DNA from: Glaciozyma antarctica PI12
Lineage: Eukaryota > Basidiomycota > Microbotryomycetes > Kriegeriales > Camptobasidiaceae
DNA length: 64,000 bases
Reading direction: 5' to 3'
NCBI GenBank assembly: GCA_002917775.1
Contig: KZ627151.1
Span: forward strand, 818,607-882,606
In this document: one piece after another, positions 21,095 through 57,846 of the stretch
How positions within the stretch are numbered: the stretch's first letter is position 1
Layout of the letters: each line of letters opens with the position of its first letter
Position numbers and translations under genes: made by a program
The notes under the pieces: generated by a model
Told to the model about the DNA's origin: nothing
The model's database searches: none
The model's input: only the letters and a program-made list of their open reading frames with translations

Positions 21095-23336
21095 ATGGAG
21101 GACCTTCCTCCTCTCGCCTCAGCAACCAGCGCACCTTCATCAACTCCACGACATTTAAAGCGACTAAGTCTATCAGTATCATCACTCGGCTCTCCAGGCT
21201 CACCATCCCCTGTACGACTCAACTCGCTCAGCTCTCCCCGGTCACAATCACCCCGGATCCAGCGACTCGGTACAGGCGGTTCAGCAGACGGTAGCCCAGC
21301 CTCCGCACCCCCAAACGGCACCACTTCCTTTCCCCTCGCCTCTCCCAACCTCCAGTCCAACCCCTCCTCCCCGACGTACGGCGGGACGCGCTCCCCGGGC
21401 GCGCCGTGGTCATACCCTCGCGCCTCAGCCTCTCCCGTAACGCCTGGAGGAGGAGGGCCGCGAGGTGGACACTCGAGGAGGATGTCGAGCATCTCGTACA
21501 GCTCTTCGCGCGAGGTCGACTCTTCGCCTAGAGGTACGCCCGTCTACGGCAGCGGCGGCGGCGCATTGGGCTCCTCCTCCTCCCCGATCCCCTCTCCCTC
21601 TCCTTCCTCCTACCTCGCGCGCTCAAGAGCGGAAGGAGGTCATCCCGATTCGCTAGGCCGGTCGCGTCGATCAGAGGATTCGGTGAACGGGAGCAGGAGC
21701 TTGAACGAAGTGGAGGAAGAGGAGGATGGAGACGATGGGGAGTCGGCGAGGGATGAGAGTGGTCAGGCGAGCTTCCTGAGTCCAGCGCGATCAGTAGTGA
21801 GCATGGGAGCGCAACCGACGTTGACAGAGGTGAACAGCGACCTGCTGAGCTTCATTGCGAAGAAGGAGCGCAAGGTGTTGGAGCTTCGCGAAGGTGAGTT
21901 TAGATGATGCGGCGTCCAACGCAGAGTGCCGAGCTGACGCCTTGAGCTATCCGCAGAGCTAAAACGACACGACGAGGAGCTCAAGAACCTCAAGAAAAAG
22001 TGGGAGTCCATCGTCGCCCGTTCCCTCGCCTCCTCGAACCCTCCCACAACCACCTCGATGCCCCGACCTCCCACCACGGCCGAAAACAGCCGACGCATCT
22101 TTTCCCGCTCCTCGACTCTCGCCTCCTCTCCCTCCGTCTCCACAATTCCCACCTCCCCTCGCTCAACCGTCAACCGTCGACGTCGTCTCCTCCCCTTTCG
22201 ATGGTCCCTCGCTCGACGCGAACCTCGGCCCTACTCCCGATATCGAAATTGTCGAGAGCGTTCAAGCCGCCAAAGCCTGGATGGGCGGCGTCTTTGGCAA
22301 GGTCCTCGAAGCCGTCGGCGGAATGGACGACGCGCAGGATGGGGTCGGAGGACGTCTTCGTCCGCTCGAGGAGGAGGAAGAGCCCGAGGAAGGCGCTCCC
22401 GACCCGTCGTCCCCTCCGCGCAAAGCGCCCACCTCTCCTTCGACCTCGCACCGCATTTCGAGTTCGGCGTCCGCTTCGTCCGTTGACGAATGGCGCGCGC
22501 ATCGAACGACGAGCGTCGCATCGACTTCGACGAGCAGCACGAGCTCGTTCGGGTTCGGAGGCATGGTGCGCCCGCCTTCGGATTCAGGCGCGAGCGAAGT
22601 GACGATCCAACCCGTCGTCGCCCCCGTCGAAGCCGTCTCCGAGAAATCCCTCCCTCCTCGACCTCGCGTCAACGCCCTTAGCGAAGGAGGACACAATAGG
22701 CGACGAAGCACGTTCGACATGCTCGGGAGCGCAGCGGGGAGTTTGGGCAAGCGATGGGGTGCCATCTCCTCGTCCGAGACGTTCAAGTCGGGTCGAGCGG
22801 CGGCTCTCAATGCGGTCGATACGTTCGAGCGTCGGTTGACCGAGACGCTAGGACCACTCGACGCGCCCGGCTCCGACGCTCCCTGCTCCGACTCCTCGCC
22901 CGAAACGACCAAGGACGCTCCCGCCCTGAAAGGCTCCGCGACGCTGCCGAGCGGAGCGGGAGTCTTTTCGTCGTGGAAGAGTGCGGCACCGGCGTCGGCG
23001 GCGGCGAAGGAGCGAGCGGGGGAGCAGCCAAAGGTCGCCAAACCGAAGAAGGGGGATTGGGATTGGTCGGCCTTCCTCGAGGGGCCCACGGAGGCGGCGA
23101 ACGGGGGAGGATACCGTCGACCGTCTCTCACGCCCAAGGCTTCGTCCTCGCCCAACCTCTTTGACGACGTCGTCCCGAGTACGACGGCGTTGGGCCCACC
23201 TCTCGACCCTTCCTTCCCTACGCCGTACAAGTCCCGTCGAACACTCTCCTCCGTCCCATCCCCTCAACAACGAACGACTTCACCTCGAGCCTCGATGGCG
23301 CCGGCGATCAAGGAGGCGGACGAGTGGGGTTGGTGA
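21095..23336 (+). CDS. DUF4048-like Ser-rich protein, frame broken by a 7-bp duplication
   Basis: This is a basidiomycete protein of unknown function with features I associate with DUF4048. They are an HLKRLSLSVSS-type N-terminal motif, then LLSFIAKKERKVLELREELKRHDEELKNLKKKWES (split by an intron near 21893-21956), and a C-terminal KPKKGDWDWSAFLEG followed by EADEWGW at the very end. The rest is Ser/Pro-rich and probably disordered. The frame up to about 22163 and the frame from about 22178 differ by one, with no plausible intron between. The junction is an exact tandem CAACCGT duplication (22164-22177). Removing one copy would join PRSTVDVVSSPFDG in frame. It may be an assembly error, an allele or a true null. 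Confidence 0.75.
22164..22177 (+). repeat. 7-bp tandem duplication in the DUF4048-like gene
   Basis: CAACCGT occurs twice in direct succession at the exact place where the reading frame changes. Confidence 0.9.
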
Positions 23337-23464
23337 TTTGGCGAGGTTGATGAAGGGGAGCGGTTTCGTTTGTCGTAATGCATTATTTCGTACGCCTGCA
23401 CGAACGAGGATTCACAGAACAGAGTCGTGGTTTGCAAAGTTGCGAAAGCTGCGATCGGGACTCC

Positions 23465-25424
23465 CTAGTCCTCCCCCTCCCAATCGACCGTCATGTCGAT
23501 ATCCTCCAACTGCCCCGTCCCTCCCATCGGCTGCGCCGTACTCGCCGCGGAATTGTACGCCTGCATCAAAGGAGTCAGCCACCAAGGTCGAAAACCGAAC
23601 TCGTTCGAGCGAGACGCACCTTCTGAACGAAATCCTTGCTGGCGCCAATGACCCAGCCCCTCTGAACCAGTTCCGCATCGAAATTGGCGGCAAAGTTGAT
23701 CGCTCGAGTCACCCGAGCGACCGTCGCGTGAGTGTTGAACGGCTCGGGGTCGTCGGTGAAAGTGACAGTGACGCCGAACCAGTCTCCTCCAGCCGGGTGG
23801 GCGATCGAGCCATGAACTTCTCCCGCGGTGATCTGTGCGGGCGTCAGGGTGGTCGCCCCTCGATGGAGCTCGAAGAGAGATGGACTGACCATGCGGAGAA
23901 CCTCCTGCTCGGCCTCCCTGAGACCCGCTTCGTCCAGCGAAAGGTCGACAGCTTGAGCGATGTCGGAAAGCGAGAGGGTGATGTAGGTCTCGGTAAGCCT
24001 TTGGATCGTGCGCCTTCGGAACGCTCGAGCGCACTGGCGGAGGAGGCCGAGGTTGTAGTCCTGCATCGCGGTTCAGGCGACGCTCGTGGAGGGAGTACGC
24101 GGAAGCTCACCTTGGCGAACGTCTCCTGATGCTTCTCGAGGACTGCTTGGATCTTCTGCTTGTCGTGAGAGGTGTACGCGGTTGCATAGTCGGTGTAGGC
24201 CCCGCAGTGGTTCTTCGCGGCCGTAGTGACAGCGGCGGAGGTGTATTTTGGAAGCGCATGAGTCTGCGGGCCGAAAGATAAGCGGGTGTGCTGCAAAAGT
24301 CACGAGGAAAGCTCACTTTTCCATTCGCGAGAAGCTGGATGAGGATGAGCTTCTTGAACGCGTCGAGCTGCATGGCGCTGACTCCGGCACCCGGCGCGCT
24401 GACGCACTGCAAAGTTCCCCATCAGCTCCAGCTCTCGCGCCAATAAAGAGACGAGCGCGCACAGCATTCAGCATGTCTGCCGCCATCGTGTGATCCTGCA
24501 GAAGCGCTGCGATTACGCCTCCGAGGTAGTGGTAGAGCAGATGATCCTGGTAGCGCACAGGGAAAATCTGGTTGCGAGGAGCGTTAATGGCATACCGCTG
24601 ACGGATAGCGTCTTCCTTACCGTGGTGTCCACGTCAGTGATAGGCTGCGCGAGGACGGTGCGAGCGTGTTCGTAGCGTCGCGAGCTCAGGACGGCCTACT
24701 CCACCTGTCAGCCACATTCACAGATAGCGGAACGAAAGTACGCACCTGGAGAAAGATGGGATGGAGGTTGGTGAGGTAGCCAGCGTACCCGATGCGTTGT
24801 ACCAGGTTCTTGAGAGGCAAGACGGCAAGGCCGGGCTGAAGCAAATCGTCAGCTACTGTGAGCTCGAGAGGGGGACCAGAGCGTCCGTACGCTTCGTGCA
24901 ACATTGGCAAGGTGGATGAGCTGTTTGGCGAAGAAGGTAGCTGTCCTCGACGCCGTCAGCGCGTACTCGAGCCCCCTCCACGCTCGTGCTCACCTTGCTC
25001 GGGGACAAGTCGCAGCTGCTGAGGATCGAAGCGCTCCGTGAAGCTCAAGATGAAGGGCAACAGCACTGCAAGGTCTGGCTGCGTAGCGGAGCAACGAGCG
25101 TTGCTGTTCCATCGCGCCTGTCAGCTCGCCTTGTCCCTCCACCCCCGAGTCCGAAACGCACAGGATGAACAGGTAGCCGACCGCTGCCGTCTCTGGCAGA
25201 AGGCGTTCCAGCGGATCCGATCCATCCTTGAGAGTTCCCTCGAGTACTCCAGGCTGGCTGGCAGCTGTTCTGCTCGTGCTGGACTTGTCGACCTTCCTCA
25301 AGGCGGGGATCACTGCGTCGTCGCCCAGAGTCAGCTCGTCGTGATGGCGCTGGGGATAGCTGGGGCGCGTACCATCTTTCGCCTCTCCTCCTATGATAAG
25401 AGCGCAGATATCGTCGAGATCCAT
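23465..25424 (-). CDS. CSN3: COP9 signalosome subunit 3 (PCI protein)
   Basis: CSN3 is a scaffold subunit of the COP9 signalosome, which removes Nedd8 from cullins. The start gives MDLDDICALIIGG. The middle has TPR-like helical repeats with VRYQDHLLYHYLGGVIAALL, QDHTMAADMLNAV and MQLDAFKKLILIQLL, which corresponds to the family's KK-LI-LI segment. The PCI winged helix follows, with YITLSLSDIAQAVDLSLDEA and the two strands ITAGEVHGSIAHPAGG. The acidic tail ends DIDMTVDWEGED. There are about ten introns. Assignment rests on the PCI pattern and the CSN3-like helices; the main alternative is another PCI subunit (eIF3 or proteasome lid), which I consider less likely. Confidence 0.82.
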
Positions 25425-25894
25425 CGCGTGAGGTGGAGAGTAACGCGCGCGGAGGAGCCGAGTCGGGACGCGAAGGCTGTGAAAGTTAAAATTAAGAGTG
25501 AAATACTCGCGAGTTATTTTTTTGCTCCTATTCTTCCTTATCTCTTCGCAATCGTTTCTTCCGTTTGAGGCTGCTGAGAAGGGATTAGAGGAAGTCGAGG
25601 CGTTCTGTGCAACTGGCAGCGAGAACAAGGAACGCTGAGCTGGAATCTGAGCTCGTGCGTCCCGCTTGAACTCTCCTCGCTGGACCGTCGCTCCCCTGAA
25701 GAGGACGGCTCCGTCAGCTCTGCCACGTCGCGAGATTCGTAAGTCGTGTTCAATTTCGCAAGATAAAACGGGGAGGGGGTATTAAAGAAATGGCACTGAT
25801 TGGAAAGGAGCGAGGCGAGACTGAAGAGGAATAGCGAAAGGCGTCAGGTCTTTGAGAAGGGCAACGGCGTAGAGTACGAGCTCACCCAAGAGAT

Positions 25895-26440
25895 TTACGG
25901 CTGAACCGTAGAGGTCAGCACGACCTTCATGTTTAGGACGGCGGCATGAAGCTGCGAAGACTCGTTAGTACGCGCGTCTACACGATATCGAGCCTATCGC
26001 TTGCGTTTGCGGGCTTACTGCGTAGCGAAGGAGGTCAGCTTCAGCAGGTACAGAAAGAAGCTCGAGAACGCACGCATTGATCTCCTTGTAACCTTCAAGG
26101 CGAGAGGGCTCCTGCTGCTTCGTGCGCAGGACGTCGCTCACCTCCTGAACCTCGATGCGAAGGAGAGCGACTAACCAAGCTAAAGTCAGCTCTCCGTTGC
26201 GAACCAGAAAGCTGAAGCAACTCACCAGACTTGGGCGACGAAGGCCGCCGAACTCGAGCGGCCGCTTCGCCCGCAGGATGCCAGAAGATCCTCTGCTCTT
26301 GCTGCTGTGTTCCGCACTTCCGCTCTGTCAGTCCTGAGGCTCTCACTCTCCGGCCAAAAAACAGCTTTCCACAAAGCGGTGACTTCCGCAAAGAGCCTCA
26401 ATGAGAAGACGCAACGAGTCAATCTGAGCGTTCGAGTTGG
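25895..26440 (-). CDS. Unidentified spliced reading frame, possibly a gene remnant
   Basis: Two or three exons can be read. One reads QQEQRIFWHPAGEAAARV to RRPSSPKS. After an intron (CTGAC branch, 26168-26225) comes VALLRIEVQEVSDVLRTKQQ, then LEGYKEINACVLELLSVP and AEADLLRYA. A second intron with an ACTAAC branch joins LHAAVLNMKVVLTSTVQP and a TAA at 25895. The helical character and proper introns suggest a real or formerly real gene. The 5' part runs toward degenerate repeat units near 26470, and no start codon is convincing. No family was recognised, and coordinates are approximate. Confidence 0.35.
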
Positions 26441-26459
26441 CAATACGGTACGAGAGAAA

Positions 26460-26660
26460 GGAATGATGCAGATATCGCAGTTTCCAGCTCACAGTCTGTC
26501 AAGCGCACCTACTTGTGTGTAGATTAGGCGCGACAGCGTTTACAGACCCGATCTGCTCTGTCCAGAGCGCCAGCGGATCCCAACCCAACCCAATCTCGCT
26601 GCCACGGGTTCGTGAATGCAGATATCGCAATTTCCAGCGGCGCGCAGTCTTTCCTAGTGG
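26460..26660. repeat. Two degenerate copies of the 140-bp repeat
   Basis: Segments anchored at GATATCGCA (26471 and 26621) share long matches with the main array. These include the CACAGTCTGTCAAGCGCAC, ACAGACCCGAT, CTCTGTCCAGAGCG and GCGGATCC blocks. Their spacing is 150 rather than 140 bases, and divergence is much higher than inside the array. Confidence 0.75.
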
Positions 26661-26680
26661 CACTGCACCCAAATCCTCAG

Positions 26681-26777
26681 CGACCCGAAGGTCGTGCCTC
26701 ACACAGTCACCAACACCGGGCGCTTTCCGAGGTACCACGAGGAGCTCAAGGCGAGGCTCAAGGCGCGAGGGAAGTAG
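26681..26777 (+). pseudogene. Isolated terminal exon, parent gene unknown
   Basis: After a perfect acceptor (TCCTCAG) an open frame reads DPKVVPHTVTNTGRFPRY then HEELKARLKARGK and a TAG. Composition and codon use look like a genuine protein C-terminus. However, the DNA upstream is repeat sequence with no matching 5' exons, so this is probably a gene 3' end stranded in the repeat island. I do not recognise the family. Confidence 0.4.
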
Positions 26778-27122
26778 GCGCGGAAGAGTAAGGGCTGAGC
26801 AGGGAGGCGCCAGTCCAGGAGTAGTACATTGGGGGGAGGGTACTGGGGGGGGGGGGGTAGTGGGATGGGCATTGGATTGGAGGGACGAGGATGGACGGAG
26901 GGAGCGAGGACGGTTGGAGATGAGCGCGGCGGCGCTGGGACGGGGCTAGGAGCCGGCGGTGTGACGGGGGGAGGCACTTCTGTTTACATTACATTGCGTT
27001 TCAAGTAGCTGGACACTATAGGACTCGCTCCACACCCCGTACTCCCCCCTCTCCTTGCCTTCGGGCTCTCCCACATACTGGTGGTCTACATGGGCATAGC
27101 TTGACATAACTAGAAATTAAGA
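26778..27122. other. Intergenic, G-rich, no gene seen
   Basis: This stretch contains a G homopolymer near 26851-26864 and purine-biased DNA, then an AT-richer stretch leading into a TATC microsatellite. No gene is supported. Confidence 0.4.
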
Positions 27123-27142
27123 TATCTATCTATCTATCTATC
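27123..27142. repeat. TATC microsatellite, five units
   Basis: Five consecutive TATC units mark the left edge of the repeat island. Confidence 0.9.
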
Positions 27143-27162
27143 GGAATCCGCGCCTCTGGGCC

Positions 27163-27422
27163 GATCTTGCGGAGCTGCTCCCCGACCTAGGTCGAGGCTG
27201 TTCGTCGCGTAAAGCTCGTCGATCACGACCGCATACGCAGGAAACATGCTGCCAGAACAGCGTAGCAAGGGCGGAACTTGGGGGACCAGAGGAACCGGGA
27301 TCAGCGCGCGCCAGCTCGGAATCAGCGAATCCGTGCTGATCTTGCGGAGCTGCTGCCCCACCTAAGTCGAGGCTTTCCCTCGCGTGAAGCTCGTCTATTA
27401 TGACCGCATACGCAGGGAACAG
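27163..27422. repeat. Direct repeat pair of about 85 bp, 175 bp apart
   Basis: GATCTTGCGGAGCTGCT starts at 27163 and again at 27338. Similarity continues through CTAGGTCGAGGCT/CTAAGTCGAGGCT, AAGCTCGTC and GACCGCATACGCAG to about 27245 and 27422. On the minus strand both copies can be read as FPAYAVxIDEL-like peptide, but no gene could be built from them. Confidence 0.75.
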
Positions 27423-28262
27423 CGTGAGCGTATCCTGATCTCGCTGGTACGGGCTCGCGAACGAATGTATCGCAATTCCCGGCGCACAGTCTGTCAAGCG
27501 CACGTACCTCTGCGTATCATGGGCGCAACAGCTCTTGCAGACCCGATTTACTCTGTCCAGAGCGTGAGCGGATCCTGATATCCCTGGTACGAGCTCGAAA
27601 ACGAAGATATCGCGATGCCCGGCGCACAGGCTGTCGAGCGCACGTCCTACTGCGTAGTTTCGGCGCGACAGCTCTTGCAGACCCGATTTGCTCTGTCCAG
27701 AGCGCGAGCGGATCCTGATCTCGCTGGTACGGGCTCGAAAACGATCATATCGCAATTCCCGGCGCACAGTCTGTCGAACGCACGTATTTCTGCGTAATTT
27801 CGGCGCGACAGCTCTCGCAGACCCGATTTCCTCTGTNNNGNNNNNNNNNNNNNNNNNNNNNNNNNNNNNNNNNNNNNNNNNNNNNNNNNNNNNNNNNNNN
27901 NNNNNNNNNNNNNNNNNNNNNNNNNNNNNNNNNNNNNNNNNNNNNNNNNNNNNNNNNNNNNNNNNNNNNNNNNNNNNNNNNNNNNNNNNNNNNNNNNNNN
28001 NNNNNNNNNNNNNNNNNNNNNNNNNNNNNNNATATCGCAATGCTCGGCGCAGAGTCTGTCGAGCGCACGTCCTTCTGCGTAATTTCGGCGCGACAGCTCT
28101 CGCAGACCCGATTTCCTCTGTCCAGAGCGTGAGCGGATCCTGATCTCGCTGGAACGGGCTCGAAAACAATGATATCACAATGCCCGGCGCACAGTCTGTC
28201 GAGCGCACGTCCTTCTGCGTAGTTTCGGCGCGACAGCTCTCGCAGATTGACCCAATCTGTTC
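27423..28262. repeat. Tandem array with a 140-bp period
   Basis: An anchor TATCGCA or a close variant occurs at 27468, 27608, 27748, 28033 and 28173: exactly 140 apart on each side of an N gap. Each unit contains GAGCGTGAGCGGATCCTGAT, CGCTGGTACGGGCTCGAAAA, CGGCGCACAGTCTGTCGAGC, GGCGCGACAGCTCT and GCAGACCCGATTT blocks. Because 140 is not a multiple of three, the array cannot encode a repeated protein domain; the open frames crossing it change frame from unit to unit. At least five units are visible and about six would fill the span if the gap size is right. Confidence 0.93.
27837..28031. other. N gap inside the tandem array
   Basis: Unknown bases interrupt the array. The units on either side are out of register by five bases, so the gap size is an estimate and copies may be collapsed. 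Confidence 0.95.
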
Positions 28263-28265
28263 TGT

Positions 28266-28484
28266 CCGAGTGACAATCATCGTCCAAGCGCCCACCTACC
28301 AACGGCTTGCACCCTGGCACCCCCGGCGACCGAAGCAAGGCCAACCTGCTCGGCTTCTATGACTGTGCGATGGGCAGAAGCAGGGACCGAGGTGTGGTAC
28401 TTATTCAGCGGGCTTCAGCACGAGCTGGAGGGGGACAACTTGGCGGCGGTGGCGGCCCCTTTGCGAGCGCACCTGGTGGAATGA
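28266..28484 (+). pseudogene. Duplicated 3' end of the DNAJC11 gene
   Basis: This stretch matches the last exon of the intact DNAJC11-like gene at 40.73-40.95 kb, in opposite orientation. Shared peptide includes RSKANLLGFYDCAM, and the final 39 bases up to the TGA are essentially identical. Before that the copy has many substitutions and small indels. The protein frame is lost between NLLGFYDCAMG and AAVAAPLRAHLVE, and the upstream exons are absent, so it is a non-functional fragment. It directly abuts the right end of the 140-bp array and is followed by a tRNA-Glu, as at the parent locus. Confidence 0.88.
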
Positions 28485-28583
28485 ACGACTACTCCTCATC
28501 CCAATGCCCATCGTCCCCCGTGAGGAGCAGCTAGTGGCAATAAGAAAGAACGACATCGATTCCAAAAAAAATGTGAACTCTTT

Positions 28584-28654
28584 TCCCTGCCGGGGAGTCG
28601 AACCCCGTTCGCGGCTGTGAGAGAGCCGAATCATGACCGGTAGACCAGCAAGGA
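28584..28654 (-). tRNA. tRNA-Glu (CUC)
   Basis: The cloverleaf folds on the minus strand. The acceptor stem pairs TCCTTGC with GCAGGGA (one G-U pair). The anticodon arm is CGGCT-CTCTCAC-AGCCG with anticodon CTC. The T arm is CGGGG-TTCGACT-CCCCG. A T-run follows downstream as a Pol III terminator. The 71 bases are identical to the copy at 40548-40618. Confidence 0.95.
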
Positions 28655-28869
28655 TCTGAATGAATTTGCGTTCTAGCTGTGACGTTCTCATCCACCGGAC
28701 GGCTTTCTGCCCTCGCTCACCGAAGCCGCTGAGCTTCCTCGGGGCTGGGTGGCGCCGGAGGAGCCTAGATGCGACAGCCAGTAATACCCCGCGAACTGAT
28801 CGAGCCAAACTCGTCAAAAATTGGCTGACGCTGGGCTAGGTTTCCTCTCGCTGAACCAGAGAGCCTCCC

Positions 28870-30176
28870 TCAAGTTGCAACATCAGAACCCTGCGACGGT
28901 TGCCGGGGCGTGAGGACCATGGCTTCATCCAGCCACTGGCGCATCGACTTCCCCTCTTGTGGTGTTGTCCTCCATGGACCTGCAAGCTTCTCCCTCGCTT
29001 CCTGCACCGCAGGATCCGCGCGCGCAATGTCGCCTTCCCGCTCATGTTCCTCCCAGTACGCCATCGTCTGCCAACCAGGCATCAGCTCGCTTCTTTGTGG
29101 CGATACGGCAAAAAGAAACGCACCTTGTCGCGAGTAGGCTTGTTGGCCATGACAGTGATGCGCTCAACGTGGGCTGCCCGTAGACGCGTGAGGGCTGCTT
29201 CGGACTGCTGAGAGATGGCGTTGAGAGCGGGGGCAATAATGGCGATTGACGAGGTCGAGGGAGGGGTATAGGTCGCAGGAAGGAGGTACATCGCCAGGGT
29301 GAGGAAGGCAAAGAAGATGTGTCGAACGACGTGCATTTGAGCATGGAGCTGGGGAGAGACCGAATGTGAGCTCGTGTTGTGCGTGAGGACTACGTTCCAA
29401 CGTACCATGACCACTTGTCCTCCTCCCCGACTCCCCTGCCAGCTCAATCGCATCCATGCCTCCACCACGACGGCCCCGGCGATCAAATAAACGGCCAGCT
29501 TCCTCCAGCGCGTCCTCCCTCCTCCTGCTAGTATCCCTACGCACGCCAGTAACGACAGGTACGACAGTGTCACTGACGGCAGGTTGTGGAGCGCAAAGTC
29601 GGTCGCGTAGTTCCCGTCTGCGTCTTCCCCCGTCGGACTCCTGCACCAACTGCAGCTCATGAGCGGCCCCACGCCATAACCAGCGTACGCCACTCGCGCA
29701 TCAAGAGTCTGCAGTCGGCTGAGAAGCTCCAACTGCTCGTCGGCGAGCTCCCGTCCACTTTGTCGCGTCCAGCGCGCCGTAAGCTCTGTCGTCGGGGTTC
29801 TGATGTCGAGAGGTGCGCGAAGGATGGGAAAGGCGCGCTGCGCAAAAGATTGTGGTGGAGAGAGGGAGAGGAAGATATTTTGTGGAGGAAGGAGGGCGGT
29901 GAAGAGGGAGAGGGAGAGGCCAAGGGAGAGGAGGAGGAGGCGGAGGTAGGCGACGCTTGCTGGTTGTGGAGGTGCCGGAGGGGGTATGGGACAGCGAGGC
30001 TGGGATCGAGTTCCTGCTGGTGGTGGTGCGATGTAGTTCTGAACTACAGCGATGACCTTGGGGAGGATGTAGGAGAGGAGGAAGGGCGATGCGATGACCT
30101 GGACGGGAGTGCGTTAGTCTGAGCTTGGTTCGCTGAAGCGTTCACTCACTGCTAAGCTAGAGACAGGGCTGTTCAT
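28870..30176 (-). CDS. Multipass membrane protein, unknown function
   Basis: The start gives MNSPVSSLA, an intron, then VIASPFLLSYILPKVIAVVQ, a first membrane segment. Later hydrophobic helices are LRLLLLSLGLSLSLFTALL, LPSVTLSYLSLLACVGILA, LAVYLIAGAVVVEAWMRLSW and HIFFAFLTLAMYLLPATY. Between helices two and three lies AYAGYGVGPLMSCSWCRSP with a CSWC pair, then GNYATDFALHNLP. The C-terminal third is soluble and helical. Layout and the Cys pair look conserved rather than random, suggesting a fungal organellar membrane protein, but I recognise no named family. Introns have clear CTAAC or CTGAC branch sites. Confidence 0.75.
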
Positions 30177-30290
30177 TCTATAAGGCTGAGAGCGAGCAGC
30201 TGGAGGAGGAGGAAGAGCAGAGACGTCGTCGCGCTCGTCGACTTGCGTCTCTCTGACCACGACCTCTTCCCACTCATCTCGCAACTGGAG

Positions 30291-31570: not shown

Positions 31571-31716
31571 TCGCTGTGTCAAGTCCTTCGCAAGTTGGCA
31601 GCGAGGAGAGAAAGTAGTAACGAGGCAGAGTAGTACCTCCCTCAGCCCAGCTCTCTCGCCCAAGTTTGCCCGGACCCCACCTACTCCCCTCCCCCACCGC
31701 CTCCACTTCCGCCGCC

Positions 31717-37712: not shown

Positions 37713-40065
<2,353 letters not shown>

Positions 40066-40547: not shown

Positions 40548-40618
40548 TCCTTGCTGGTCTACCGGTCATGATTCGGCTCTCTCACAGCCGCGAACGGGGT
40601 TCGACTCCCCGGCAGGGA
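40548..40618 (+). tRNA. tRNA-Glu (CUC)
   Basis: The same 71-base cloverleaf as at 28584-28654, on the opposite strand. The anticodon is CTC in the loop CTCTCAC, and the acceptor TCCTTGC pairs with GCAGGGA. A short T-rich stretch follows. The parent DNAJC11 gene ends 115 bases downstream on the other strand. Confidence 0.95.
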
Positions 40619-40732
40619 AAGGATCTTTATTTTGCTCGTCGGTTCGCCACGTCGTTCATTTTTTGCCGCGTCCTCCCTTGCAGAGGGTGGGTGGAGGAGG
40701 GATACGGTGCACGAGATGAGAGAAGTGTTTGT

Positions 40733-45537: not shown

Positions 45538-45742
45538 TTCTCGCACTTGCAAGCATAGATAGTCCCCACACCTTTTTGTTCCCGAATCTTGCAAGATCCG
45601 ACTCGGGTACGGTGAGGAGAGAAGAGGTCGAGTAAACATCGCAAGGCGCGAAGCCGACGCGGCCCTCCCTCTCTCCCTCTCGCCACCTCCCCGACTTGCT
45701 CGCCGACAGCAACACAACTCCGGCCAACGCCTGCTGTCCCCA

Positions 45743-48295
45743 ATGCCAGGCACGAAGCCTAGGATCCTACCGCCGCCGTCCTCCCCGCCCTCCCTCTCCT
45801 CCCCCGCTTCGGCATCCAGCTCGTCCGACCTCAATCTCGCGACCGACGTCCTCGAAGACTGGCAGGTCGTGCTGAGGAATGAGCGCAAGGTACGCTGGCA
45901 CTCTGTTAGCTGCGTGTGGGGTGTGAACTGAGCATGAGCGGCAGGTGGTCCTGTACCACCCCGAGAGCAATGCTCTGCGAGTGACGGCGCTGGGAGGTCG
46001 ATGGAGGGGCAGCGGACACTCGGAAGAGGAGGAGGACTACGATAGTGATTCACCGGCGTTCGCAGAGGAGGAGCTCGAGGTCATCTCTCAGGCCGACGAC
46101 GAGTCAACACCGCGTCCCTCCCCACCTCTCGACATCTGCCCTCTCTGCCTCCGTACGCTGCCCAAGAACCACCACAAGCAGCCTTCGCCTCAGCCACGCC
46201 GACTACCCATCTCCAAGAACGCCTCTTACTTCAACCTTCTTTCCGAAGCCAACTCGCGCGCCAACAGCCCTCGAACGACGCGGACCTCTCCAGCGCCTTC
46301 GACGAGCGGAACGCCGCTGGATAAGGCGACGCTTAACTCAGGATACTTTGCTTCGTTCTTTATCAAGGTCAAGCAACTGGGCAAGGGGGGGAATGGGGTC
46401 GTAGAGCTTGTGCAGCACGTCCTGAACGGGGAGAAGCTGGGTCTCTACGCGTGCAAGAAGAGTGAGTCGCGTGGCTGGTATCGAGACGGAGAGTAGCTGA
46501 CTTGTTCGACTGCAGTCGCTGTTGGAGACTCCTCGCCAACACTGTGCGCGTTCGTCGCCCATTTCCACTCCCTCGCTAACCTTGCACCTTCGCAGTCTTC
46601 GAATCCTCCGCGAAGTTCACCTCCTCGAAGCGCTCCAGCATCCCAATATCATCAACTATCACCATGCCTGGATGGAATCGACTCAACTCACCTCTTTCGG
46701 TCCTCCCGTCCCGACCCTGCACGTCCTCATGGCCTATGCAAACGGAGGCTCTCTTTCGGACTACGTCAGTCGACGGAAAGGAGGAGTCGAGGGCGACCCC
46801 AATGCGCCGGGATTGAGCAAGGTGGAGCGAGTGAGGGCGTTCAAGATGCGGAAGCAGGAAGCTGGTCCACCTTCTCCGGCTAGACGAGATCATCTCCATC
46901 TTCGAGGACGTTTGCGAGGGTCTCGCCTTCCTCCACAATCGCAACATCTTGCATCTGGATCTCAAGGTGCGTTCTGCCCAGTATCTTGGAGGCATTCGGC
47001 CAGCTGAGCAGCCGACTTCGCAGGCTGAGAACGTCCTTTTGCACTGGGACGATCCCGATGACTTGGTGTGCGTCGCTCCGCTTCGTTCCTATATTCAGTA
47101 CTGACCATGTTTCTCTCGCAGGCCCTGCGCCAAGCTCAGCGACTTCGGGTCTTCCGACTTTACGCACGACGCTTCTCGCCACGAGCGCAGTGCGTCGCTC
47201 CCCTCAAGGTTACGCGGTTTCTAACGCTCCCCTCGCAGTTGGTGCCTCGGGAACTCTCGACTGGACTCCTCCCGAGCTCTTCGAGACAAGCTCGATGTCG
47301 GGGAAGAAGATTGCGCCAGATCGCTCGACGGATCAGTGGGCCTTGGGTGCGTCCCCGTCTCGCGCGCCGAGCTCAGAGCTGACTCCGCCCTCCCGTCCAC
47401 AGGACTCATCCTCCACCTCCTCAGCTACTTTACTCTCCCGTACCAGAACGACGTCGATATCGTCGCTCTCGAGTCGGAGATCCGCGCGTATCCAGGGTCC
47501 GTCCTCCTCTCCACCGCGAAGGCTCTTCCTGACCGAACTTGGCGGCAGGTTCTTCCCCGCCGATTCTCAGTCTCTCAACCACGGCATCCGCCACGACCTC
47601 CCCGGCAGCCTTTTACGGATCATGGCGCTTCTCATCCACCACAACCCGCAGAAGCGGCCTTCGTGCGAGGAGGTCCTCGTCCTCTTGCGGCGTGTTAAAG
47701 TCGAATCCCTCAGCGTTTGTTCTTGTCTCCTTTCTAAATGCCAGGCAGCTGACGGATCCCTCCTCGCAGCCTTCAGCCTCGCTCCCACCCGAGGCCTCCG
47801 CACTCGTCAAGCAGCGTTCTCCCTCTCCCTCGACCGCAGCTCCTCTCGTACGTCCTTCTCCCCAGTCGCTACATATCTGACACCCGTCTCGCAGCCGTCT
47901 CAAACTCGCCGGCACTCCATCCCTCTCGCAACCGAGAAGATCCCCCTCCTGTCCTCCGCACTCCCACCCGCCCGTCTCCGTCTCCCCTCTACTCGCCTCC
48001 GGCTTTCTCGAGCGTACCAGAACCGCCTCACCGCCGCTTTTCTCGCGCTAATCAAGGTACGCCACTTCCCTCCCTTCCTCGCACATCGAATAACGCGTCG
48101 CAGGCCGTCTCTCTACAGCGTGCCTGCCGACATACCGCGCTCTCGAGCGTGGGGATGTACGCGCTGCTCCTGCCGACGCTGATCGATTTCGGCGTGTCGG
48201 ATCTGAGGGTATCGGTGCTTTTAATGGGGCTGCACGTACTAGGGATGGTGTGGGGAGGGAGAGGAGCGGCATGCTTTCTTAGGAATGTAGATTAG
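45743..48295 (+). CDS. IKS1: IKS1-type protein kinase, frame broken by a 7-bp duplication
   Basis: This Ser/Thr kinase of the fungal IKS1 family has a CPLCLR-type Cys pair in the N-terminal region. The glycine loop is VKQLGKGGNGVVELVQHV and the ATP lysine lies in LYACKKIAVG. The catalytic loop is NILHLDLKAENVLLHW, the DFG motif is in KLSDFGSSDF, and the activation segment is SGTLDWTPPELF. Then come EIRAYPG and, after an intron, FFPADSQSLNHG. The C-terminus is hydrophobic (MYALLLPTLIDFGVSDLRVS, LLMGLHVLGMVWGG), fitting a membrane-associated tail, and ends at 48295. Between MRK and LVHLLRLDEIISIFEDV the frame shifts by one at a tandem GGAAGCA/GGAAGCT (46850-46863). Deleting seven bases restores it; no intron fits. 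Confidence 0.88.
46850..46863 (+). repeat. 7-bp tandem duplication in the IKS1 kinase gene
   Basis: GGAAGCA is followed directly by GGAAGCT exactly where the kinase frame slips by one. Confidence 0.88.
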
Positions 48296-48515
48296 GCTCG
48301 CTAGGAATGCAGACTCTGCAATATCGCACTCGTGCGCTCTTCGAGGCGCGCTGTGGCTTCTGTTCAACCTCCACTCTCCTCGCCGCACCCGGCGATTGCG
48401 AGCTCTCGCTCTTTTGCGCAGGTTGGGATGGGAGACGGGCTTGAGATTTCGCAACAGCGCGACGAGACTGACAATGCAAGAGTGGGATAATCCGTAAAGC
48501 TAGAGGTGAGGGTAT

Positions 48516-51500
48516 CTATAGGAAGACATGGTATATGGTGGAGGCGAGGAAGCGAACTCCCGTATCTGAGAGAGGATCAGCGAACGACGCAAGTCCGAGG
48601 AGAAGGAAGACGCTCACAGATGGCGATGTACGCGAGAACCCAGGTAACGTCTGCGGTAGTAATTAGCGACAGGTGTGAGAGGCCGAGGACAGTACCCACA
48701 GGTTGAGGCGAGTCCCGAGGTCTCGACGACGTGGAAGACACGCGTCTGCGTGAGCGCGGTTAGCAACACCCTAGATCAAGAGCATCAGGGAGCACGCACG
48801 TTGGCTACGAGCCAGACGGTGTAAGTGAAGGTGCCGGCGACCTTGTCTCAGCCCTCTCTCGCCTTCTCCTCAGGGCTCGCAGATCCTCCGATCTTCGCCT
48901 GGCGCTCATGCCTCTTGGTGCCCCAACTGCAACGGTAGATAATCAGCGGACTTGCGTTTCTCGAGACAGACAAGAGGACGTACCCCATATCCCACGCGTT
49001 ACGGAAGCTGAAAATGGGAAGGAGAACGACGAGACGAAGGAAAACAGCAAGAACTGCATAGTTGAACTAACTGCGGTAGGGAGAAGAAGAAGAAAACGTC
49101 AGTACATCCTTCGCAGTTTCGGCAGCGAGCTTGCCGAGGTGCGAGGGGTCGAGGGCGAGAAAGCTGGCAACGATGTAGCAGCCGACTAGAGAAGAATTCA
49201 CTTAGCTCCAAGCAGTCTGGGAGGCAGTGAAAGACTCGCCGTTGGCCAAAAGGGGGACGAAAAACTTCGCATGGCTCTTCCAATCCGTCGAATAGCGGCA
49301 GAAATCAACCGCGTGAAAGATGGCGGCGAAGCCCATATAACCCATTGCGAGAACCATTCCAATGGAAAGAAGCGTGTGCGGCCATCCCGCCCTGCGAAAG
49401 CCGCCCATTAGCGAGATTGCGAAAGGATAGCAGCAAAACGTACTCGTCTGGCGGAATCGTGGCGGCGGCGATAGACGTAAGGAGTACGATGGTGGCGACT
49501 CCGAGATGTACCCAGTCGTTGCCAACCTCGATGTGAGCGAGAAAGTGGTAGTGCTGGAGGTCCTCGAGCGCCGACGTGAGGGCCTGGAAGGGAGTCAGCA
49601 CGAACACGCGGGCAGGAACGAGGAGCGCACCTTGAAGATCAATTAGGCCGAAAGTGCACTGCGGGAAATCAGCGACGAGCGAGCCAGGATGAGTGGAATC
49701 GACAGACCCGAAGAAGTTGAAAACGAGATGGATGAAGTTGATGACAACGAGCGACGCCAGCGCCACTTTCCTCGTGCGAGAGTGCGAAGTGTACCAACGT
49801 CTCCAGACGGTAAAGAAGGTGAAGAGAGTTGCGAAGAAGGCGCCCTTGTTCCAGCTATCACCCACAACAGCGTCAGCGAGCCCGAAGCTTTGGTGCTGGA
49901 AGCGACATACCGACGACGTTGAGGGATGAACTCCGGGAAGGACTTGGGAACGTCGGTCTTTCCATAGACTTCCTGGTGGTTAGATGCGGAAAGTCAGCGG
50001 GCCTTCGCAGCATCTCAAAAAAGCGATTGAACGAACCTTGACTTGTCCCAGGACCCACTTGCTGTCCTTAAGCGTAAGAACCTCCCAGCCAAGAGCGCGA
50101 TACTCCTGTAGAACAGGCTAGTTCAGCAAAGCCACAAAAACGGAACCAAACCTGACGAACAGCGAGGAACCTCGACCTCGTCTGTGGGCAAGCGCGGGCG
50201 AAGCCAGCGCAAAGTTCGCACAGGCTCAAGCGACGCCTTTCGACGTACGAAAGATCCAGCGTCGCTTCCCGCTCGGTCAACCTCGAAGTAACGAGCGCAC
50301 GCCTCGCCCATGAGCGCCTCCCAGCGGAACGCGCAGAACGCTCCAACTGCAGCGGGGAAAAGAAGGCGTCAGGAACTCTCCAGCAGCGGAAAAGCAAGGA
50401 TTGACGCTTACTGACGACAGAAAGAAAGCCGATAAGGGACTCCGCAGGCTTGTCGAGGATGCCTGCGTCGAGAGTCAGCTACGGCTCTGCGAGGGAGGAC
50501 CGAGAAATCGCAGCGTACTCGACATCTTGTACTCCTAAGCTCGCACACATCACCTCGCAATCGATGGACGAAAGTAAGGAGAGGACAACGCACAAAGTTC
50601 TGAGACGCGATGAGGGGGTTGAGAAGGCTGCGCTTGCATAGCCCTTTCGAGACGACAATCTCGCCGCACGCGCCACCCAGGTTCTCGTTCTCGAACGCTC
50701 TCCAAAGCTTGTAGATATACAGTGGCGCTGGCTTCGTACCTGCATCGAGGAGAATACTGAAGAATGATCAATGGGAGCGCTGCAGAGAGCGAGGAGGGAC
50801 GTACACGATGCGGGGGTTGAGCTGTCGGGCGAACGCCTCGAAAGCCCAGCGATGAGAATTGAGCTTGTGCTGGCTGGAATCAAACAAGATCAGCAGCTGC
50901 GATGAAGACGGAAAACGCTAGAGAGACTTACTTCTGTTGACGGAGGTGCGCGAACGCGAACAGATAGTCAGAAAGCTTCGCAGGATGAACAAGTTGACGC
51001 CTACCTTTTCCTTGACGCAGAAGATGACCTGAGCCTGCGTTTAGATACGTTAGCGAACAAGTACGCGAGAATTTGTCGATCGAAGAGGAGGAATAACGCA
51101 CCGGAGCGATGTCGTTCTCCGGCCCTTGAGCGAAGCGGCGAGGGGTGATGGAGAACGGCGTCGTCCCCTCGACGACGTGAGCAATGACCGGGGAGTTTCC
51201 GAGGCTGCTGTAGAGGACGTCCTCGTTGTAAAGGCCGAGCTTGGTGAGGCTGCGAAGGGCGGTCAGCGACTCTGCGAGCAGGAGTCCGGAGAGGAATGCG
51301 CACGCGGCGAGGATGTCGGGATTGATATAATTGCGGCCGTCAGCGACAATGAGTATGACTAAGCCTGCATAGAACGGAGAGTTAGAACAGTGCGGAGAAG
51401 CGGTGAACGAGGAGCGCACGCTTCCAGCCGTGCTCGCCCCAAAGCTCGGAATCGCGCCGCATGCAGAGCGCCGAAAGGTTCTCTGCGAGATGAGTGGTAA

Positions 51501-52300
51501 GTCCTGGCTTCGAGTGATCTCGAGTAGAGGTACTTACGCCTCAGCTTGTGCCGCCAGCTTTGCAGAAAAAAGCTCCAAGTCCTCGTTCTACAGCGTCATC
51601 ACGGCAAGGATCTCGGTCTCGCGGCCGTAGAGGGTTTGCCTCAGAGAGATACCAGTGTCGGCAAAGCTCTCGGGCTAGGAATCCGGTGAATCAGCACATT
51701 GGCAAGGTCAGGAATGGAGAAAGACGCACCTGCAAAGTGAGGGCGGTGCACTGCGAACGTACGAACGCCGCGTCGCCCTGGTTTGCCCTCGGAATCAAGC
51801 GCTGTGCGTCGCCAGATCAGCTTGCTTACAGCCCTTTGCGATACGCGAAAACGCACCAGAAGGTCGGCAGGCAAGTCGTAGTACCCAGAGAGCGCATGCG
51901 GAGGATGCCACACGCCCGCCAGTACGCTCTGCTCGCGCCACGACATCAGCTTCCACAGATCTACTCTCGCGAGCGAGGAAGCGAAAGAACTCACCCTCTC
52001 CCCCCTAACTCCATTCCTCGCGTCCTCAAACACGTGCTTCCAAGACACGCCAACGTTGTCCCCCGCCTCAGGCTTCCCCCCATCCTCGCTCCTGTTCTGC
52101 TCTCGTCGCTCTAGGTCCGCGTTGCGTCCTACTCGAAGTGGGTGGTGAAGGAGCTGTTCTTCCGGCTCAGTCGAAGTGCTGGGCTGACCTCCTGTCGCAG
52201 AGGGGCCTGCCTCGAGCGCGCAGGGCCTCCCGCGGAGAGATGTTTCGGCCAGAGGCGTGCAGGGGCCTGTCGTCGTTGTGCAGCCCGGCGTGCTTCTGCG
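48516..52300 (-). pseudogene. Chitin synthase, apparently recently inactivated
   Basis: A nearly complete chitin synthase can be read through about a dozen orderly introns. Segments are [145 protein letters not shown] (catalytic QRRRW) and the C-terminal membrane segments to STIYHVFL. Three departures stand out. The invariant Tyr of the MTxYNED segment is TAG (near 51590). The catalytic EDR motif reads EYR (near 50105). An in-frame TGA precedes DKVAGTFTYTVWLVAN (near 48850). The 5' frame stays open beyond 52.1 kb, so the start is uncertain. A linking exon near 50930 would be two bases long, or marks another indel. Confidence 0.85.
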
Positions 52301-53992
52301 GCATCGTTGAGATTTGGTGGGGTTTGGGGAGAAGGAGAGAGAGAGAGAGCGAGGCGAAACTCCAACTTGCGTCGAAAGAGGAGGCGAACCTTGTTGATCC
52401 TCGACACGCGAGTCGATCTTTTCGGGTCGTTGCAGTCAAAGCCAGTCGCAGTGGAGCAAGATGGTATGGAGAGACGCTGCAGCGGAGCGAGCGGAAGGTG
52501 TATCTGGAACGAGAGATGGCGGACCTGCCGCAGCGCTTCCTCCGCGGACGCGAGTCGAAGTCAACGCAAACGCTCCTCGCTTTTCGGCACTGAAAGTTTT
52601 TCAGCTTCGAGCTACATAGCTGAGGCATGAGTGACTGTGGAGAGTTGATGGAAAGCAAAGCAAAGTCGGCTACGAAGCTGCGAAGAGCTCTTTGGAACCG
52701 GGCTCAGGGAGCCGCCTCCTCTCCACTGGCCCGCTCGACTGTCGCGATCTTTACGCGGTTTGAAGAAAGCGCAGTCTCTTCTCCTTCGACAGCTCACCGA
52801 GAAAAGGTTGGTCGCGAGCATCTGGCGACGCAGGTCTCGGTAGCGAGGTCAACGCTGCATTCCTTGGGACCCAACTTTGCCCAGCTTTCCAGATCTCGCG
52901 CGTAAGCGGAGAGAGGGAGACTGGATGTTATCTGTTGTGCGGTGTGTATGAGGAACCAGAGGTATCCGGGGCGCGGAGGGATCGCAGTCGGGAGCTCTAG
53001 CGAAACTGAGACGAGACCCACTTTTTCGGCGAGAGCACGACGACACGGTGTCGACACCTCCACCAACCTTTGGCTCTCTTTTCTCTCTTCCGCGACTGCT
53101 TCACTCGATTTGCCAGCTCAGCTGCTGCGCGAACACCGAAAAAGGTCGGAGAACTAAGGGGGTGCTAGCGAGGATGCCAAAGGAGGTGCTGCGAACGGCC
53201 TTGCGAAGGTGCGAGGGGACGATCGTCGAGGGCTGATGCCAGACGACTCTGGAACCGACAGGAGCCGATGAGCTGAGACAATAGAGCGCAAGGATTTGGA
53301 GCTTGGGGATGAGGATGTGTTTGGGAGAGCTCGGGAGCGAGAAGCAGACGGTCGGTTGCGATGGACCTATCTCAGGTGCCGAGTAGTCAGGTGTCGAGTA
53401 GACACGGGCTGAGAAGCTTTTTAAGAGAGATTAAGGAGGATGAAGAGCGGCAGAGAGAGCTTGCGAGGAGGATTAAACGGCCTTTCGCAAGAGGAGCCAT
53501 AAGCCGAATTGATCGTTCCTCGCTCATCTCAGTCCGAATATCAACTAAGCTCAGATAAACACTCTGTACTACCCCTTTTTCTACTAGGCGTAACTCTGAG
53601 GACTTGCTCGCTAAGTCGAAAGTCGAGAAACCGCCGCTTGCGAAGCTCTCGCTTATTCCTCGCTCCCTTCATCCTTCTCTCCCGTGCGTCTCTACTCTCG
53701 CTCCTAATCTCCTGCTTACATTTCGTGGTGCTTACTGCGCTCGGTCAAATCTGCGCCTACAGTCTCAAACTGGAAGAAAGACTCGGCCAGCGAGCATTTC
53801 ACAATTGATTTGATTAAAATGTCACTTCTCTCTCAGTTTGGCCCTGAGCTCGCTCGCTGCCCTCACTCTGCCCAAACAACTCCCTCGCCTCTCCAACTAG
53901 AACTCAGCACTCGCTACCGTCCTCCGACCTCCTCACACCCCGCGCCTCCCTCTCCCTCCGCCTCCTCCCGACTCTCCCGCCTTTCGCCCAGC
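52301..53992. other. Long intergenic region, no gene supported
   Basis: About 1.7 kb between the chitin synthase 5' end and SmD1 shows short mixed-frame openings without motifs. It may include the former chitin synthase promoter and N-terminus and the SmD1 promoter. Composition becomes more AT-rich near 53.5-53.8 kb. Confidence 0.45.
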
Positions 53993-54967
53993 ATGAAGTT
54001 GGTCCGGTAAGCCTTTCTTCCCTCGAGGCCGTTCATCGTGCAGTGCCGACGCGGCGAGGGGCGGACGAGCCAAGGAAGCTGTTGGGTAGAAGGGGAGGAG
54101 GAGGCGGTGAAGAGATGGAGGCGGGAAGGGTACTGGGGCGACTGGGAGGAGCGAGAAACAGGGCGGCTGGAACGCGAGGCGTGAGGGAGAGCTCGCCGTG
54201 CTGGGACTGCAGGCTGGAGGGGGAACAGAGGCAAGGGGAGTAGAGAGGACGTGAAGCTGACCAGGCTCCTTCTGTGCAGGTTCCTCGTAAGTTGATGGCG
54301 GAGGGTGGAGTCACGCGTTGGTGGAGCTGACGAGTGCGTTCGTGCCAACAGATGAAGCTCAACAACGAGACGGTCACGGTCGAGCTCAAGAACGGCACAG
54401 TCGTGCACGGCACCATCACCGGTACGTCCCTCTCCCTCTTGCTCCCACCCCAGCAACACCCCTCCTCCAACCCCAGCTAACCTCTCTCTCACTACGACGA
54501 AACAGGCGTCGACATGTCTATGAACACGCACCTCAAAACGGTCAAGATGACGGTCCGGAACCGCGAGCCTCAGACGCTCGACAGCCTCAGCATTAGGGGC
54601 AACAACGTTCGCTACTTCATCCTTCCCGACTCACTGCCTCTCGATACGCTCTTGATTGACGACGCGCCCAAGCCGAGGAAGAAGAAGGATGTGCGTATTC
54701 ATTCTCCTTGCTCCCGTGCCTTCTCGTACCTGCTCCTCGCTCGACTCGACCTCCCTCGAGCCCTCCACACCATCCCGCTCTCACACCCACCTCTCCCCCT
54801 CTCCTCCCTCCCTCCTTCCCTCCGCGTTCAACTAAGAACCAAGCTAATGCTCCTAACGCAGGGTATCCCCGGACGTGGACGCGGAAGTCGAGCGATGGAG
54901 CGAGGAGGAGGAGGACGCGGACGCGGGCGCGGAGGACGTGGAGGAGGACGCGGCAGGGGGAGTCTGA
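53993..54967 (+). CDS. SMD1: Small nuclear ribonucleoprotein SmD1
   Basis: SmD1 is a core subunit of the Sm ring on spliceosomal snRNAs. Exon 1 gives MKLVR. A 7-base exon (54280-54286, GTTCCTC) adds FL. Then come [40 protein letters not shown] and [20 protein letters not shown]: the Sm1 and Sm2 motifs, complete. The C-terminal RG tail follows a 171-base intron (54691-54861), with [20 protein letters not shown] and further RG repeats. The frame does not stop where expected. A TGA at 54965-54967 lies one base out of phase just after a five-G run, and the actual frame stays open to 55338, into the next gene. The end given here is therefore provisional. Confidence 0.88.
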
Positions 54968-55141
54968 TCTATTCTCTTCTCTCTCTCTCTCTCTCTCTGT
55001 CGGGGGGTTGCTTTGAAAATGGAAGAAGGCTGGGGCGAGGAGAGCCTAGTTTGTACGATGCCGTCGGATCGCGAGGTCGTGTGCACGAGGTCGTTTTGAG
55101 AGAACGCCGCTTGTCCCCCCACTCTCTGCTCGAACCGGTGC

Positions 55142-57846
55142 ATGCCCCTACGCCCTCTCAGTCGAACCCTACCACGCGGCCGTCCCTTCTCCACCACCCC
55201 CGTCCCCCGCACCCTCTCCACGCCCCACCTCTTCGCCCCTTTCCTCCCTCCCACCATGGTCGACACTCACGACCGCCTCGCGCGCCTCCGCTCCCAGATG
55301 GCCGTAGCGGGGGTACAGGCTTACCTCGTCCCTTCTGAGGATTCGCATGGGTCGGAGTATATCGGTGATGCTGATGCGCGGAGGGTGCGTCCCGCTCTCT
55401 CTCTCTTTTGTGCGGAGGGGCTGATGAGCGCAGGCTTGGATATCGGGATTCAGTGGGAGTGCTGGTACGTTCCTGCTTTGATGGGAGGATGGGGGAGCTG
55501 ATGCGGTTGTGAACAGGGACGGCGGTGGTGCTGGAGACTGAGGCGCACTTGTGGACGGATGGGAGGTATCACCAGGTCCGCTCCTCCTCTCTCTCTCCTT
55601 GTACGGCACTGATACGTCCTCTCACAGCAAGCTGCGAAAGAGTTGAGCTCAGACTGGACGCTGCATCGACACGGACTCCCCCGTTCGTCCCTCCCCCTCC
55701 CATCGCACGAGAGCTAACCCAAGCGATCGCAGAGGTGAAATCCTGGCAAGAGTTCCTCGCCACCCTCCCCCCTTCCACGACCCTCGGCCTCGACCCCACC
55801 CTCCTCTCCATCACAGACCACTCCACCCTCCTCCCCACTCTCCGCGCGCCTCTCCTCCCCCTCGCAGCGAACCTCGTCGATCAAGCATGGAGCGATAGGC
55901 CACCGAGGCCGGCGGAGAAGGTGTTCTTGCAGGGGGTGCAGTGGGCCGCAGAGGGGGCGGGGGAGAAAGTCGGGAGAGAAAGTAAGGAGAGTGAGGATGA
56001 GGAATGGGAGAGCTTGGGGTGTGGTGGTTAGTGCGCTGGATGAGGTGGCTTGTGAGTCGCTCTCTTTCCCTTTTTGGAGCGAGGCTGATGAGGTGCAGGG
56101 ATGCTCAACCTCCGCGGAGGGGATATCGCGTACAATCCTGTCTTTGCGGCGTACCTCGTTGTTCCCGTGGCGAGCGCGCCGACGCTCTTCGTCGAGATTG
56201 AGCAGTTGCCGCAGGACGTTTATGATCATCTCCAGCGAGTGGGGATCTTGATCGAGCCTTACGATAGCGTCGTTTCGTATCTCTCTACCGTCGGGGCTTC
56301 GCTACAAGAAGGCGTACGTTCGTCCTTTTCTTCGAGCGAAGGAAGAGCTGATGAAGAACGCAGGAAACCGTCATCTTCCCTTCGAAAGCCAACCTCGCTC
56401 TCGCATCAGCTATCGGTCTCTCCAAACTCGACATCTACCGTGGTCCTGTCGGAGATCTCAAAGCCATCAAGAACGCCGGTCCGTCCTCACCTCCCCACCC
56501 TGCTCTCCCTTCTCCCCGGCTCACGCGTTCGCCCGCAGTGGAGATCGAGGGATTCAGGCAGTGCCACATCCGCGATGGCCTAGCCCTCACGCGGTACTTC
56601 TCCTGGCTCGAACGACAGCTCAATGCCGGCGTCCAGCTCAGCGAGAGGCAAGCTGCCGACCACCTCGAGTCCCTCCGGCAGTACGTGCTGCCCCATCCGT
56701 CCCGTGCGATCGCTAATAAATCGGCGCAGGGAGCTCCCGCTGTTCAAAGGCCTTTCGTTCCCCACTATCTCCTCGACGGGAGCCAATGCTTCGGTGATTC
56801 ATTACCAGCCTGATCCTGTCAACTCGGCGACGATCGCGAGGGACGAGATCTACCTCTGCGATTCGGGCGCGCACTTCTCGGACGGGACGACCGAGTGAGT
56901 TCCTCTCGCTCCCTTCCGCCGAGACGAGCGCTGAATAGCGTAGCACGACTCGGACGCTTCATTTCGGGGAACCGACGAAGCAGGAAGTGAGAGCGTTCAC
57001 GAGGGTTCTGCAAGGTGCGTCTTTCGTCGCTAGCCGCGAGGGCGAAGCTGATGAGCGCAGGACATATCGCGATCGATACGATGGTGTTTCCCAAGGGAAC
57101 GACGGGGTACTTGCTCGATGCGTTTGCGCGAAGACCGCTTTGGGAGGACGGGCTGGGTACGTCGTCGTCGTCGTCTCGCCGGCGAGAGGGGAGGAGCTGA
57201 TCGATCTTTCGCGCAGATTATCGGTGCGCTAGTTCTGAGAACGCCGTGAGCTTAATAGCTAACTTTTCGCAGGCATGGAACCGGACACGGAGTCGGCAGC
57301 TTCCTGAACGTGCGTCAATTTCGCGTTCGCTCGAAGAACGGGCTGACCCCTCGCTCGCAGGTACATGAAGGACCTCAAGGCGTTGGGACTCGGATAGCGT
57401 ACAACGACTGCAAGCTTCAAGCGGGCATGACGCTCTCCAACGAGCCGGGGTACTACGAGGACGGCAAGTTTGGCATCAGGATCGAGAACATCGTGATCGT
57501 TCAGCCGTGAGTTCGCTTCCTTTCCCTTTTCGTGGGGCTCGCTGATGAGGAGGATAGTGCGACGACGCCGAACAACTTTGGCGATACGGGGTTTCTCAAG
57601 TTTGAGAACGTGACGATGGTACGTCCCTCGAACGAAGGAGGGAGAGCGAGTTGCTGACCCCCGCGAACAAAGGTACCGATCCAAACCAAGCTCGTCAATG
57701 TGACGCTGCTCAGTCCCAAGGAGCTTGCGTGGCTTAACGCTTACCATGCCGAGGTGCTGGAGAAGCTCAAGGGCCCGATGGAGAGGTCGGGAGATGTTGA
57801 GGCGCTCAAGTGGTTGGAGGAGGCGACGAGGCCGGTGGTGCTGTAG
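55142..57846 (+). CDS. Xaa-Pro aminopeptidase (M24B), frame broken by a 13-bp duplication
   Basis: This di-metal peptidase removes N-terminal residues before proline. The N-terminal creatinase-like domain starts [20 protein letters not shown] and [13 protein letters not shown], with [17 protein letters not shown]. The catalytic pita-bread fold has the ligands [16 protein letters not shown] (two Asp), [19 protein letters not shown] (His), [19 protein letters not shown] (two Glu). A 7-base exon (57216-57222) precedes HGTGHG. The first ATG adds a basic Ser/Arg/Pro stretch that could target mitochondria; [11 protein letters not shown] at about 55257 would make a cytosolic form. Between [11 protein letters not shown] and [20 protein letters not shown] the frame shifts by one at an imperfect 13-bp tandem duplication (55963-55988). 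Confidence 0.9.
55963..55988 (+). repeat. 13-bp imperfect tandem duplication in the aminopeptidase gene
   Basis: GAGAAAGTCGGGA (55963-55975) is followed by GAGAAAGTAAGGA (55976-55988). Both encode Glu-Lys-Val, in the frames before and after the slip. Confidence 0.85.

Follow-up and report, generated by a model that had tools for sequence, protein, structure and literature searches.

Reading-frame breaks beside short direct repeats in three genes of the Glaciozyma antarctica PI12 draft genome: probable consensus or assembly errors

Do three reading-frame breaks in a 64,000-nucleotide stretch of the Glaciozyma antarctica PI12 genome (contig KZ627151.1, 818607-882606; hereafter the window) mark genes disabled by tandem duplication, or are they faults in the assembled sequence? 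The genes concerned encode a serine-rich protein (site 1), a protein kinase (site 2) and Xaa-Pro aminopeptidase 1 (site 3), and the initial annotation had assigned to all three one type of lesion, a short tandem duplication that shifts the frame by +1, possibly as a reversible switch in a hypermutable lineage. Our analysis suggests that the three breaks are probably indel errors introduced when this draft (19.98 Mb in 18 contigs) was assembled or its consensus called, at places inclined to be low-complexity purine or pyrimidine tracts that hold short direct repeats, and that the three genes are probably intact in the organism.

The frame breaks themselves are clear. We used a gene model with frame-shift states and, from coding statistics, the log-likelihood gain of a frame change over keeping one frame or the other; localization is given by a 3-nat interval. 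Each of the three exons demands a frame change of the +1 class, with gains of 317 and 77 nats at site 1 (interval 22137-22181, best 22174), 21 and 124 nats at site 2 (interval 46855-46884, best 46881) and 104 and 85 nats at site 3 (interval 55967-56028, best 56012); with the gene model at its most stringent, sites 1 and 2 were among its own calls. The letters quoted for the repeats are present in the sequence at all three sites. The slip had been placed exactly at the duplication; for sites 2 and 3 the best single points fall beyond the quoted repeats, yet both intervals extend into them.

Splicing offers no convincing way to restore the frame at any of these sites. As the initial annotation had also stated, no convincing frame-bridging intron of 36-149 nt was found: no called intron scores as low as the best candidate at site 1, and the best candidates at sites 2 and 3 rank near the 20th percentile, yet would remove the conserved catalytic-loop and ALDE stretches, respectively. 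At site 3 the gene model dodged the break with a weak 70-nt 'intron' (55941-56010, forward strand) whose donor and acceptor are poor, ranking it in splice score at the 5th percentile of the 1,050 called introns; we prefer a frame break there because of these poor signals and because the intron would cut into a length-conserved stretch.

The three genes, all on the forward strand, differ in how firmly they can be identified. The site 1 gene model (21726-23333, start uncertain) has no significant Pfam family in the pieces searched, and its former DUF4048 label was not recovered, no match to that family appearing in them at E values up to 0.01 or up to 10 with HMMER filters that discard many weak matches. 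The site 2 gene (45743-48287) is a protein kinase, as had been proposed, with Pkinase matched in two pieces (1.3e-11 and 5.6e-23) on either side of the break; IKS1, the name it had been given, is a label only, and elsewhere in the genome it has only distant kinase relatives. The site 3 gene (55256-57843) is likewise confirmed as Xaa-Pro aminopeptidase 1 by its alignment to the human enzyme (3ctz, 1.7e-53) and by Creatinase_N and Creatinase_N_2 matches, and no second copy was found in the genome at E values up to 0.001. We take both the kinase and the aminopeptidase to be probably dispensable.

A lesion common to the three genes is not supported by the repeats. Site 1 carries an exact 7-bp tandem pair, a period-7 run of 16 nt (22163-22178) with a 2-bp overlap past the two copies. 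Site 2 has an imperfect 7-bp pair (6/7; 46850-46863) at the edge of the break interval, and site 3 an imperfect period-13 repeat in a purine-rich tract (55958-55991), with 11/13 matches in the register first described and 12/13 from 55958. Two full exact head-to-tail units thus occur at one site of three and are lacking at sites 2 and 3. Nor are the copies joined by microhomology of the length expected: microhomology-mediated tandem duplication requires about 4 bp or more, and the run of nine at lag 7 in site 1 amounts to an overlap of 2 bp. The imperfect copies favour error, because a duplication would be expected to be exact if recent, and to lie in a decayed gene if old.

Repeats of this kind are, moreover, common in the exons of this genome. 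In 165.6 kb of predicted exons (periods 6-30, simple units left out), exact pairs with periods of 1 and 2 modulo 3 number 24 and 7 versus 13.5 and 2.6 in simulation, and pairs of at least 84% identity number 233 and 74 versus 182.5 and 56.1, so that one near-tandem pair of period 1 modulo 3 is met in roughly every 0.7 kb of exon. Out-of-phase near-repeats are therefore routine here and are no lesion marker by themselves. A width-matched interval placed at random in exons overlaps an equally good class-1 repeat with probability 0.019, 0.215 and 0.006 for sites 1-3; against random one-base indels the corresponding values are 0.035, 0.272 and 0.0053, with a joint Fisher P of 0.003 that is overstated because the three sites had been chosen for their repeats. 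Exact short tandem pairs of non-3n period number 36 in 71.3 kb of sampled noncoding DNA versus 8.6 simulated, an approximately fourfold excess; either short tandem duplication is common there or the composition of noncoding DNA is poorly modelled.

Frame breaks are also general over the assembly. The gene model was trained on the window and 24 tiles, each of 10 kb (20 at fixed positions over 16 contigs and four adjoining the window; 304 kb in total), and with a later addition of 40 kb the sequence scanned came to about 331 kb without Ns. The introns it recovered are compact, with a median of 57 nt, a donor that is mostly GT[GA][CA]GT and an acceptor that is mostly GCAG. At a strict penalty (-13) there were nine frame-break calls in the 304 kb and two new ones in the further 40 kb, where a call in an ILV3-like gene recurs. 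Three of these 11 were dropped, and the eight kept, together with site 3, which was added via homology, give nine breaks, or about one per 37 kb. A permissive penalty (-8) yielded 27 calls in the 304 kb and seven new ones in the further 40 kb, among which that in an HTD2-like gene was kept; the remaining permissive calls, one of them 39 nt from an N gap in tile L003, are left out of the count. The breaks, whose density in the window had first seemed very high, occur in other tiles too: six lie in the 124 kb made up of the window and its surroundings and three in 207 kb of other tiles, an unfair contrast because three were supplied by the initial annotation and tile edges reduce sensitivity. 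Extrapolated, nine breaks in 331 kb would mean several hundred across the genome. So many simultaneous young knock-outs are too many for a free-living yeast, which makes errors in a gapped draft likelier.

The six further breaks affect varied genes. One, confined to 9 nt, falls in the ILV3-like dihydroxyacid dehydratase gene (tile L025, about 7356, window coordinate -12644; matched-phase repeat P 0.44). Between PAZ and linker 2, an Argonaute-like gene just outside the window (tile L024, 174, window coordinate 64174) has a possible break of the other class (P 0.30). A UBR1-like gene is broken at L020 9585 (P 0.005), an unnamed gene at L010 9020 (P 0.02), a B-type cyclin gene in its N-terminal part, at a stretch of five A (L012 3309; P 0.54), and a gene that we take to be HTD2-like at an exact 8-bp pair (L084 1494; P 0.03), the short upstream piece of the last having no Pfam match. 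Beside the UBR1-like break (L020 9568-9611) there is also a direct repeat at a 22-nt spacing and, judged by eye, a perfect 6-bp inverted repeat whose loop is 3 nt. Coding signal persists on both sides of every kept break, most weakly in the Argonaute-like gene (10.7 nats) and at L010 (11.9 nats). At the permissive penalty six of the eight model-called genes hold a single lesion; the second ILV3 call apparently lies past the gene end, and three calls fall in the cyclin gene, including that at a downstream in-frame stop (L012 3656). These counts are subject to the model's ability to conceal further lesions inside weak introns, as at site 3.

The link between frame breaks and direct repeats of matched phase also holds beyond the original three sites, in support of the initial annotation. 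At the six breaks that the initial annotation had not picked, such repeats are enriched (Fisher P 0.0022), versus P 0.73 for an opposite-phase control, which covered seven breaks out of nine and left out those in the aminopeptidase and HTD2-like genes. All these association samples are small. In a cruder test, matched-phase runs of at least nine occur at three of nine strict calls and at three of 27 permissive calls, where 0.11 and 0.32 were expected and the opposite phase gave 0 and 1, and runs of at least six at four of nine (1.6 expected) and eight of 27 (4.8 expected). The breaks are likewise biased towards purine or pyrimidine tracts (P 0.002 for all nine, P 0.011 for the six), and repeats form easily in such tracts.

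Homologue lengths bear on the size of the net change. Among 58 homologues of the aminopeptidase (55 from genome contigs and three from solved structures), 47 have 20 residues separating the aligned K from L(DE), and the spacing predicted is 18 residues for a surplus of 13 bases, 22 for 1 and 20 for 7, so that 13 and 1 are equally far off. The length evidence was judged in the ILV3-like and UBR1-like genes. Compared with two homologues, the ILV3-like protein has equal length at the break for a net one-base change and would fall two residues short for seven bases; compared with human UBR2 and UBR1, the UBR1-like protein would be longer by about one residue with one base and shorter by about six with 22, in a weak alignment with gaps in the loop before the break. 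In both genes, as far as these alignments can tell, a net change near one base would fit better than an extra copy.

We therefore weigh consensus or assembly error, which the initial annotation had itself offered as an alternative, against mutations in the organism. Errors would tend to occur where purine or pyrimidine tracts of low complexity hold short direct repeats; some breaks may be duplication-type errors, in which an overlap was written twice, and others may reflect a net change of about one base adjoining a native near-repeat. Error appears to be the better reading, and from it we infer break-free DNA in the organism. Several observations weigh on the other side. Each of the three sites is over 5 kb from its nearest N gap. 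The exact duplication at site 1, like the 8-bp pair of the HTD2-like gene, is what slippage in a living cell would leave, and the matched-phase enrichment at independent breaks means that not all breaks are plain random base errors. Finally, any of the nine broken genes may be non-essential; the ILV3-like gene has a second copy (60% identical, on C15) and the B-type cyclin has relatives.

Real, young small indels of the strain are the main rival to assembly error. Ordinary slippage duplications and one-base changes in dispensable genes, fixed or subclonal, would need no special mechanism; the two exact pairs, the noncoding excess of exact tandem pairs, the enrichment of matched-phase repeats and the presumed dispensability of the kinase and aminopeptidase all speak for them. 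Conversely, such indels would have to strike about one gene in 37 kb among genes otherwise apparently undecayed, the copies are imperfect at two of the three sites, and a dihydroxyacid dehydratase is among the broken genes, albeit one with a second copy; we regard this explanation as possible but rather unlikely. It is more doubtful that the breaks are one-base errors or mutations whose adjoining repeats are native and there by chance. The abundance of near pairs of period 1 modulo 3 in exons would suit such coincidence, as would the L011 gene, which we take to be of TPR type and whose 7-bp pair fits a native 6-bp repeat plus one base (a weak break, uncounted), but joint P values of 0.002 to 0.003, from small samples, stand against it.

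The reversible microhomology-mediated switch that the initial annotation proposed fares worse, and we consider it very unlikely. Matched-phase repeats above chance and one exact pair among three sites are in its favour; neither the exact pair nor the association demonstrates reversibility, and against it stand two inexact pairs of three without visible further decay, an overlap of only 2 bp at the exact one, homologue lengths in the ILV3-like and UBR1-like genes that do not favour an extra copy, and a density that is not specific to the window. A broader variant, in which short and often imperfect repeat-filler-repeat insertions, from error-prone end joining or template switching, truly break about one gene per 40 kb and many are young, possibly reversible knock-outs, strikes us as quite improbable. 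Least credible of all is that introns went unrecognized or that +1 frameshifting is programmed here: the +1 class does account for six of the nine kept breaks, but no motif common to the breaks was seen on inspection by eye, the best introns for sites 2 and 3 would delete conserved sequence, and the best for site 1 ranks under all called introns.

Several calls and features fall outside this argument. The call at window 17018, in a gene that is presumably GDP-fucose-synthase-like, was dropped since an intron with a GTGCGT donor and CCAG acceptor preserves the frame; that at L005 8495 proved to be an intron boundary, and that at L086 7270 arose where the model fused upstream noncoding sequence onto a protease start. 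The weak break at L011 4685, with gains of only 9.5 and 3.4 nats, was left out of the nine. A search for DEAD-box genes within the genome gave 39 matches, in which the match table alone could not tell introns from frame breaks. The window contains three N runs (2351-2464, 27837-27839 and 27841-28031); a 140-bp unit in about three tandem copies (27421-27836) ends exactly at the gap that begins at 27837 and is probably a collapsed or unfinished array. Two tRNA-Glu genes, both with anticodon CTC, lie at 28583-28654 (reverse strand) and 40548-40619 (forward strand).

If the breaks are consensus errors, as appears likelier, gene models and claims of pseudogenes or gene loss drawn from this assembly need a prior check against reads; if they are real, this is a yeast in which small duplications disable many genes simultaneously. 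The sites studied here resemble the microhomology-mediated tandem duplications of fission yeast (Dan et al. 2021, as cited in the review PMC13207564) in having short repeated stretches in coding sequence together with a frame shift, and differ in that two of three copies are imperfect and that the exact one has a 2-bp overlap. Replication-slippage insertions would likewise match the exact 7-bp pair at site 1 but not the inexact sites 2 and 3. Compared with errors in draft fungal assemblies, part of the breaks here carry matched-phase direct repeats; as probable errors, they resemble such cases in being spread over the assembly, mostly one per gene and often in low-complexity tracts, within scaffolds that contain gaps.

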